From Candidatus Saccharimonadota bacterium (lineage in GTDB: Bacteria; Patescibacteriota; Saccharimonadia; Saccharimonadales; Saccharimonadaceae): a stretch of 64,000 bases of DNA. The first letter of the stretch is position 1, and every line of letters starts with the position of its first letter. The translations under genes and the position numbers were made by a program. Below are positions 28,408 through 30,842 of this stretch, one piece after another. The DNA lies in contig JAUNNB010000003.1 in NCBI GenBank assembly GCA_030531645.1, positions 1 through 64,000 on the forward strand, given 5' to 3'. The notes beneath the pieces are model-generated. The model did not search any database and was not told the DNA's origin. It saw only the letters and a program-made list of their open reading frames with translations.

Positions 28408-29220
28408 TTAGACGGTAAATAAAACGTAGATCAAGATTCCAAGTGAAACAATCACGCGATAAATACCAAATGCTTGAAGTGAATTTTTCTTCTTGAGATA
28501 TTTCATCACGATAGTAAGTGCGATGAGACCAGAGGCAAACGCAACGATGTTGGAAAGAGCTAACATGCCGAGATTATCCATAATGTATGCGCGAGATGAG
28601 CTCGAGATGAGTGATTTGCCACAGACTGCGAGCATGATTGGGATGGATGCGAGGAAGGAATAGTCTGCAGATGATTTTGAATCCATGCCGGTGATACGGC
28701 CGGCGATGATAGTAGATCCAGAACGGGAAACGCCTGGGATTAACGCAAAGGTCTGTGCAAGACCGATTGCAAAGGCGCGTGGGTGTGTGAGCTCTTCTTC
28801 TGATTTAATCTTAGAAAGATGTGGGAGCTTGTCGACAAGAATCATCAAAATACCCACAAGCCCCATAGCTGTGCCGATGACGGCTAAGCTAGAAAAGAAT
28901 GGGGCGGATTCAATGAAATCACTGAGGAGTAGGCCAATGAGTCCGGCTGGGACTGAGGTGAGGACGAGGTTAATGGCCATACGCCAGTTGTGATTAATAA
29001 AAATGTCTTTAATGATTTTCCAAATGCGTTTGCGATAGAAAATAAGCAGTGCGAGAAGTGTGCCGAAGTTGATTAATTCGAGGAAGAAGTGAAAATCATC
29101 GGCGCGAGCGCCACCCGCTAGAATGCTTTGTGCTACTTCGAGATGTCCAGATGAGCTCACCGGAATGAACTCTGTGAGGCCCTGAACGAGGCCTAAAGTA
29201 ATAGATTCAAATGGATTCAT
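28408..29220 (-). CDS. uppP: Undecaprenyl-diphosphatase (UppP/BacA)
   Basis: Membrane phosphatase that recycles undecaprenyl pyrophosphate, the lipid carrier of wall synthesis. 270 aa with eight hydrophobic segments; starts NPFESITLGLVQGLTEFIPVSSSGHL, containing the E-rich and SSSGH catalytic motif, and has the second PGVSRSGSTI motif (about 166-175). TAAAAT (29227-29232) ends 6 nt before the ATG, leaderless. It is divergent from the HTH-murA gene with only ~80 nt between the starts, so the two wall genes share a control region. Confidence 0.96.
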   Translation of the reverse strand: MNPFESITLGLVQGLTEFIPVSSSGHLEVAQSILAGGARADDFHFFLELINFGTLLALLIFYRKRIWKIIKDIFINHNWRMAINLVLTSVPAGLIGLLLSDFIESAPFFSSLAVIGTAMGLVGILMILVDKLPHLSKIKSEEELTHPRAFAIGLAQTFALIPGVSRSGSTIIAGRITGMDSKSSADYSFLASIPIMLAVCGKSLISSSSRAYIMDNLGMLALSNIVAFASGLIALTIVMKYLKKKNSLQAFGIYRVIVSLGILIYVLFTV

Positions 29221-29257: not shown

Positions 29258-29287
29258 TTTACAAAATATATCATGTGGTGATATAAT
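29258..29287 (+). promoter_or_regulatory. Promoter of HTH-murA
   Basis: TTTACA (29258-29263), 18-nt spacer, extended -10 TGATATAAT (TATAAT at 29282-29287). The operator-like palindrome at 29267-29286 fills the spacer and covers most of the -10. Confidence 0.8.
29267..29286. promoter_or_regulatory. Operator-like palindrome, promoter copy
   Basis: TATATCA and TGATATA arms around TGTGG, plus one flanking A: the 20-bp unit recurs in inverted orientation with a single mismatch at 29734-29753. Occupancy here should block the promoter. Confidence 0.65.
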
Positions 29288-29303
29288 TAGCGTGGGAGAA
29301 ATT

Positions 29304-30842
29304 ATGGATTTTCAAACTGAAATAGGCAAAGCTATTGCGCATTTGAGGCGTGAAAAAGGCATGACTCAAGCAGAGCTAGCCGAGAAGATCGGGACTTCAC
29401 AGAGTGCGGTGAATAGCATCGAAAAGGGTGACAGAAATCTCTCACTAGAAATGGTGAGCAAATTCTCAAAGGCACTAGGAACGCAAGTTCTCTCTATAAA
29501 TGATTCTGCTTCACAATCTTTAAAGATCAAGGGCGGGAAAAAACTGCACGGTGAAATCACCATTAACTCCAGCAAAAATGCTGCTGTGGGGTTGCTTTGC
29601 GCTGCCCTTTTGAACGACGGAAAGACTACTTTTCACCATTTAGCACGTATTGAGGAAGTCTACCGAATCATTGAAGTTCTAGAGTCTATTGGCGTGAAAT
29701 GTAAGTGGGTGAACCGCCGAAAAGATTTGGAAATTATATCACCACGTGATATAAAAATAAAGAATTTGAATGTGGCGGCTGCCCGCAGAACTAGGTCCGT
29801 AATTATGTTGATGGGGCCACTTTTGCATAAATTTGAGAGCTTCCAGTTGCCTTACGCTGGTGGTTGTTCCCTAGGCACCAGAACAGTAGATCCACACATG
29901 AAGGCTCTTTCAGTTTTTGGGCTTAAAGTTGATGCCAAGAATAACACTGGCGTTTACGATGTGGCTGTCTCGCAATCAAAGCTTCATGAAGGCACGCCAA
30001 AGAAAATTGTACTCATCGAGCGTGGTGACACCGTAACAGAAAACGCATTATTTGCAGCAGCACTTTATCCAGGCAAGACCACCATCGTGGGTGCATCTTC
30101 CAACTATATGGTGCAGGATGTTTGTTTCTTCTTGCAAAAGCTTGGTGTTAAAATTCGTGGCATTGGCACGACTACACTCGTAGTAGAAGGTCGTTCAAAG
30201 TTCAACAAAGACATTGAATATTGGCCGAGCGAAGATCCAATTGAAGCAATGAGCTTTATCGCAGCTGCGTTAGTGACGAAAAGTGAAATGAAAATTACTC
30301 GCGCACCAATTGAGTTCTTGGAAATGGAGCTTGAAGTCCTGAAGACGATGCATGCGAAAATTGACGTGAGTGAAGAATATCTCGCAATGAACGAAAGGAC
30401 AAGATTGGCAGATTTGACGATTCATGAATCGAAACTTGTGGCGCCAATCGATAAAATTCACCCAATGCCATTCCCTGGTCTCAATATTGACAACTTGCCA
30501 TTCTTTAACGTGATTGCTGCGACAGCAGAAGGCAGAACTTTGATTCATGACTGGGTGTTTGAAAATCGCGCAATTTACGCTGCTGACCTTTCTAAATTAA
30601 ATGCGAAAGTAGAATTGCTTGATGCACATCGCGTATACATCGAGGGGCCGACAAACTGGCATGCGGGCGAACTTGTAGCGCCGCCAGCGTTGAGGCCAGC
30701 CGTTGTGATTTTGATTGCCATGCTTGCTGCACCAGGCACATCAATTCTAAGAAATACTTATTCGATTGATCGTGGCTACCAGGATTTTGCAAGGCGTTTG
30801 AATCATCTAGGTGCTGATATTACTACCCTTGGTGGTGTATAA
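29304..30842 (+). CDS. murA: HTH (Cro/C1-type) domain fused to UDP-GlcNAc enolpyruvyl transferase MurA
   Basis: 512 aa from the ATG at 29304, which has GGGAG six bases upstream; a GTG 12 nt earlier is only 4 nt from the -10. Residues about 5-60 form an XRE/Cro-C1 helix-turn-helix (REKGMTQAELAEKIGTSQSA then VNSIEKGDRN). Residues about 72-512 are MurA, which adds enolpyruvate from PEP to UDP-GlcNAc: SSKNAA (K91, N92), the catalytic-loop GGCSLGTRTVD with Cys188, and GLNIDNLPF carrying the conserved Asp. Normal MurA is ~420 aa without a DNA-binding domain. The combination implies an autoregulating enzyme. It is divergent from uppP; pcrA follows immediately. Confidence 0.95.
   Translation: MDFQTEIGKAIAHLRREKGMTQAELAEKIGTSQSAVNSIEKGDRNLSLEMVSKFSKALGTQVLSINDSASQSLKIKGGKKLHGEITINSSKNAAVGLLCAALLNDGKTTFHHLARIEEVYRIIEVLESIGVKCKWVNRRKDLEIISPRDIKIKNLNVAAARRTRSVIMLMGPLLHKFESFQLPYAGGCSLGTRTVDPHMKALSVFGLKVDAKNNTGVYDVAVSQSKLHEGTPKKIVLIERGDTVTENALFAAALYPGKTTIVGASSNYMVQDVCFFLQKLGVKIRGIGTTTLVVEGRSKFNKDIEYWPSEDPIEAMSFIAAALVTKSEMKITRAPIEFLEMELEVLKTMHAKIDVSEEYLAMNERTRLADLTIHESKLVAPIDKIHPMPFPGLNIDNLPFFNVIAATAEGRTLIHDWVFENRAIYAADLSKLNAKVELLDAHRVYIEGPTNWHAGELVAPPALRPAVVILIAMLAAPGTSILRNTYSIDRGYQDFARRLNHLGADITTLGGV
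29734..29753. promoter_or_regulatory. Operator-like palindrome, copy inside the murA coding sequence
   Basis: Arms TATATCA and TGATATA around CCACG within codons for about residues 144-150. Reverse-complemented, it matches the promoter copy at 19 of 20 bases; centre-to-centre distance is 467 bp. Confidence 0.6.

Follow-up and report, generated by a model that had tools for sequence, protein, structure and literature searches.

Why does the murA gene of a Saccharibacterium carry almost the same palindrome twice, once in its promoter and once, inverted, within its coding sequence, and what might bind to such a pair of sites? The host genome (Candidatus Saccharibacteria, 771 kb, 12 contigs) is 99% complete, and the locus lies in a stretch of 64,000 nucleotides, here called the window, in which the following features bear on the question.

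29258 to 29287, plus strand: murA promoter, with a -35-like TTTACA (29258-29263), an 18-bp spacer and an extended -10, TGATATAAT (29279-29287)
29267 to 29285, plus strand: predicted promoter operator, TATATCAT-GTG-GTGATATA, its right arm overlapping the extended -10
29304 to 30842, plus strand: HTH-murA coding sequence, with an ATG start and an alternative GTG at 29292
29337 to 29483, plus strand: XRE-type HTH domain (residues 12-60; Pfam HTH_3, E = 4.9e-16), its helices seen in the structure model
29400 to 29423, plus strand: recognition helix (residues 33-40), QSAVNSIE in the window genome and QSAIHRIE in the genus
29735 to 29753, minus strand: predicted coding operator within murA (codons 144-150), the promoter-copy motif inverted and under synonymous constraint
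29733 to 29741, minus strand: antisense extended -10, TGATATAAT, inside the coding operator, as read from the sequence

The sequence of 29267-29285 is TATATCATGTGGTGATATA and the reverse complement of 29735-29753 is TATATCACGTGGTGATATA. The two are identical at 18 of 19 bases, with the match continuing through ATAATT, and both have arms TATATCAY and GTGATATA separated by three bases. The original prediction, of twin near-identical palindromes agreeing at 19 of 20 bases with a centre distance of 467 bp, is therefore confirmed, the distance now being measured as 467-468 bp. It had also placed a -10 over the promoter copy, which is correct, but its statement that the coding copy has no such reason for its sequence does not hold, as a complete minus-strand extended -10, TGATATAAT, runs from 29741 down to 29733.

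Within the window, a search allowing up to three mismatches returns only the two murA positions (shuffled sequences give 0.02), and the whole 771-kb genome contains just four sites with up to two mismatches and none for a reversed control pattern, so that the genome-wide count proposed with the original prediction refutes a random frequency. In 40 genomes, WTCAYNNNRTGATATAAT has 40 matches, and shuffling its left arm with the -10 left intact reduces the count to 2, so that the motif is not a plain extended -10. Together, the window shuffles, genome count and shuffled-arm control rule out a chance origin of the twin sites. The murA site is also not a known RNA element, having no match in Rfam.

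The gene itself encodes a 512-amino acid protein in which an XRE-type HTH (Pfam HTH_3, residues 12-60), with relatives in the PDB such as C.BclI, SinR and HipB, is joined to a complete MurA domain (residues 76-499). A single-chain structure prediction has a mean pLDDT of 88.8, a MurA fold and a low-confidence linker at residues 64-69. HTH-murA is the sole MurA or EPSP_synthase-family gene found in the window genome, and as residues K91, N92, C188 and R193 do not vary among 30 sequences, the MurA domain is probably enzymatically active. The neighbouring uppP (undecaprenyl-diphosphatase, 28408-29220) is divergent from murA and shares with it the intergenic region that holds the operator, but uppP was found next to murA in none of 80 relatives and was rejected as a shared operator target.

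The promoter operator and the fusion among relatives

The window murA and 80 related murA genes, with protein identities of 70-78%, make up the genus set, and in all 81 the operator is present at the murA or operon promoter with a score of at least 18/20 for the genus form. In shuffled upstream regions the best score was 17, reached once. The consensus of the promoter copy in the 80 related genes is WATTCRY-NNN-RTGATATAAT, in which the right arm is the extended -10, and a TTTACA-like box is present upstream of murA in many of the relatives. Three genes that could have been taken to lack the promoter operator do have it: in L035 and L040, murA follows a galU-like gene whose promoter carries the operator (1106 and 1100, respectively), and in L064 the operator is present but inverted. 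L035 and L040 have a further 19/20 site (4191 and 4187, respectively) inside a downstream pcrA-like helicase gene. In most of the 80 related genes the murA start codon is within ~6 nt after the -10, and more generally the upstream regions of murA, murD and tsaD in the genus often have TGNTATAAT followed by ~6 nt and then the start codon, a pattern that suggests leaderless mRNAs.

A phylum-wide search identified HTH-MurA proteins in many families and related MurA proteins without an HTH in others. Outside the genus, 28 of 34 fused murA genes have TATATCAT-N2-ATGATATA over the -10, whereas this form is present in none of 17 unfused murA genes (Fisher p = 7e-9). The threshold for this distant form was a score of at least 13/16, reached by 9 of 660 shuffles, and two of the 34 fused genes, L144 and L145, belong to the genus type and have low scores for the distant form. 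Of 149 genomes of the order, 11 have exact palindromes, one in each; in ten of these the palindrome is directly upstream of HTH-murA and in the eleventh it is on a sequence piece without murA.

Codon choice and joint change in the coding copy

Throughout the genus, the coding copy is at fixed codons 144-150, with the sequence ATT ATA TCA CCN CGY GAA TTR, and synonymous information along murA peaks at these positions. At all seven codons the operator spelling is more biased than any other column for the same amino acid in the gene:

ATT: 81/81, other Ile columns at most 80%
ATA: 78/81, other columns at most 60%
TCA: 70/70, other columns at most 40%
CCA: 52/81, other columns at most 60%
CGY: 65/65, other columns at most 91%
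GAA: 78/78, other columns at most 85%
TTR: 80/80, other columns at most 78%

Shared descent would affect the comparison columns, which have the same tree, just as much and therefore does not account for this bias. In 80 of the 81 genes the coding operator also scores above 99% of random synonymous recodings. Conservation at synonymous sites in relatives with the fusion, named at the outset as a check, is thus strong, and the recoding and codon-column tests rule out amino acid conservation alone as the cause of the coding copy. murA would be a clean natural example of a regulatory site that dictates codon choice within an essential enzyme. Synonymous constraint also clusters at codons 62-65 (29487-29498; CTC TCT ATA), in the HTH-MurA linker and outside the operator motif, with CTC used for 67 of 80 Leu residues and TCT for 73 of 81 Ser residues.

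A coincidence, in which a common extended -10 in the promoter happens to resemble a stretch encoding conserved amino acids, would fit the overlap of half of the promoter copy with a -10, the conservation of the residues E-I-I-S/P-P-x-E-L in their own right and the presence of a similar coding stretch in G206, which is not the closest genus. It is contradicted by the synonymous tests, the genome-wide rarity of the motif, the dependence on the fusion and the shuffled-arm control, and is barely credible. The G206 gene (L156, from another genus of the family) has the genus-type stretch ATT ATA CCA CCA AGT GAA TTG together with a promoter operator of the other, non-genus type, and a closer genus is without such a coding stretch; coincidence, transfer or an antisense -10 may account for it. 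Confined as it is to one genus, the coding copy is, judged by this distribution, an addition and no basic part of the system.

The recognition helix and the left arms change together. In the genus the helix is S-Q-S-A-I-H-R-I-E, with I-Y-R in a few cases; the promoter copy has TATTC or TATGC as its left arm, and the coding copy has AATTC. Only the window genome, within the genus, has S-Q-S-A-V-N-S-I-E (IHR to VNS), and it also has a TATATC arm in both copies, which in the coding copy required E-L to become D-I; here, the predicted operator would dictate even amino acids of the enzyme. Operators of the TATATC type are also present in distant lineages whose helix has N or A at that position. This co-variation, one event within the genus and one between groups, links the protein to both sites.

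Possible roles of the two sites

With the fusion and the site occurring together, the codons under synonymous constraint and the helix and arms changing jointly, binding at both sites is strongly supported, and we consider both very probably bound by HTH-MurA. Because the operator covers the -10, repression can reasonably be inferred, and negative autoregulation of murA by HTH-MurA is likely. The overall explanation that we favour, with moderate confidence, is a self-repressing HTH-MurA with a promoter operator and an auxiliary operator in the coding sequence. Both palindromes would be operators of the product of their own gene, the XRE-type HTH fused to MurA, and a dimer on the promoter copy would cover the -10 and block RNA polymerase, so that the enzyme would limit its own production. 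The coding copy would be an auxiliary operator, maintained by codon choice, that strengthens repression by bridging to or cooperating with the promoter site ~470 bp away, as does lac O2 inside lacZ. As with trigger enzymes, occupancy of the sites may depend on MurA substrates, although this we can only surmise.

Whether bridging is the role of the coding site is evenly balanced. The centres of the two sites are 470-471 bp apart in 58 genes of the genus and 479-482, 492, 501 or 511-512 bp apart in others; these other distances are about whole helical turns away, a weak signal (p ~0.01) from 11 distinct, non-independent distances. In two genomes the sites are separated by 1.3 kb, which speaks against a fixed loop. 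Of the original proposal, a dimeric HTH protein at two sites is thus borne out by the comparative evidence of co-occurrence, constraint and co-variation; repression is a reasonable reading of the position of the operator, and the looping that it envisaged, for which there is the weak phase signal, competes with an antisense promoter in the coding copy. The coding copy could, instead, be a roadblock at which bound HTH-MurA halts elongating RNA polymerase within murA, with the promoter site not involved. Its conservation in the two genomes with the promoter operator 1.3 kb away, and the internal sites in murD of part of the genus, would agree with this, but approximate helical phasing would not be expected, and from the sequences we regard a roadblock as unlikely.

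The favoured explanation also has to accommodate the full -10 hexamer that the coding copy retains, which a pure operator does not need and which counts against it. This hexamer would be accounted for if the coding copy repeated the core of the murA promoter (operator and extended -10), directed at the 5′ half of murA and acting as an antisense promoter that can be repressed. HTH-MurA would then control sense transcription as well as an interfering antisense transcript. The minus-strand TGNTATAAT is kept in 78 of 81 genes, even where TCA has become CCA, and the invariant ATT at codon 144 preserves the end of TATAAT; distant operators manage without AAT, and many promoters in the genus display just an extended -10. 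The left arm, however, is needed by no -10 and yet is equally constrained (GAA 78/78, TTR 80/80), and in the window genome it changed along with the promoter arm. There is also no -35-like constraint upstream of the coding copy, and searches there for a reading frame or an Rfam RNA gave nothing. On balance, an antisense promoter seems unlikely, and the auxiliary operator remains our preferred reading.

Related systems and further candidate targets

Transcription control in Patescibacteria is little known, and the results provide this group with a concrete predicted regulator, DNA site and target gene drawn from many genomes, in a form that lends itself to in vitro tests on short DNA fragments and a short protein. 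If the prediction is true, the enzyme of the first committed step in saccharibacterial peptidoglycan synthesis represses itself. We know of no earlier peptidoglycan enzyme that acts as its own transcription factor, and HTH-MurA would be the first. No description of an HTH-MurA fusion was found in the literature searched, which covers few subscription journals.

NadR, too, joins an HTH to an enzyme domain. BirA, NadR, PutA, PepA and PyrH of E. coli are trigger enzymes or enzyme-transcription factor fusions (PMC8249747), and HTH-MurA, with a full MurA domain joined to a DNA-binding domain and a predicted control of genes, resembles these as a metabolic enzyme. It differs from them in being a MurA from a Saccharibacterium, with its own gene as the predicted target and a second site in the coding sequence. 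The arrangement of the sites, with the promoter operator at 29267-29285 and the coding operator at 29735-29753 both conserved in the genus, is that of lac, in which O2 lies 401 bp downstream of O1, inside lacZ (PMC1762422). In both, a main promoter operator is accompanied by an auxiliary one ~400-470 bp downstream in a coding region, but at murA the regulator is encoded by the gene itself and the internal site is inverted and contains a -10. XRE-family autoregulators with palindromic operators have been surveyed (PMC12565409), and HTH-MurA shares with these the HTH_3 fold, an expected dimer and a palindrome in its own promoter (81/81 in the genus, 28/34 in distant fused genes and 0/17 in unfused genes), but differs in its fusion to a full-length enzyme and in the second site within the coding region. 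Fused enzymes are not mentioned in the main text of that survey, nor does it contain the strings GATATA and TATC.

The regulon was sampled by pattern searches, in which murA, an internal site in murD and the tsaD promoter were the recurrent locations. Among 50 murD genes of the genus (L195-L244), about one in three has the motif TAT TCA nnn TAT GAT ATA ATT near codon 42-48, although it is absent from murD in the window genome, and 9 of 30 tsaD promoters (L256-L285) have the operator motif at 18/20 or better, mostly over the -10. A fuller account, in which HTH-MurA is its own repressor, the operator is encoded twice, the coding one serves either to anchor a loop or as an antisense promoter under self-repression, and control extends to murD and tsaD in parts of the genus, has in our estimate an even chance of being correct.

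In the window genome, the two remaining sites with up to two mismatches are inside argS (C7:54037) and in front of a MazG/ROK pair (C4:6448). The argS copy is the exact promoter 19-mer and results from a 12-nt insertion that is unique to this genome among 30 compared; it was therefore rejected as a conserved site, although the half-site AAT ATA TCA is common in relatives. The second, at C4:6448-6466, is a near-perfect symmetric operator, ATTATATCA-CCGTA-TGATATAAT, preceding genes for a MazG pyrophosphohydrolase and a ROK kinase, and has an extended -10 on both strands.
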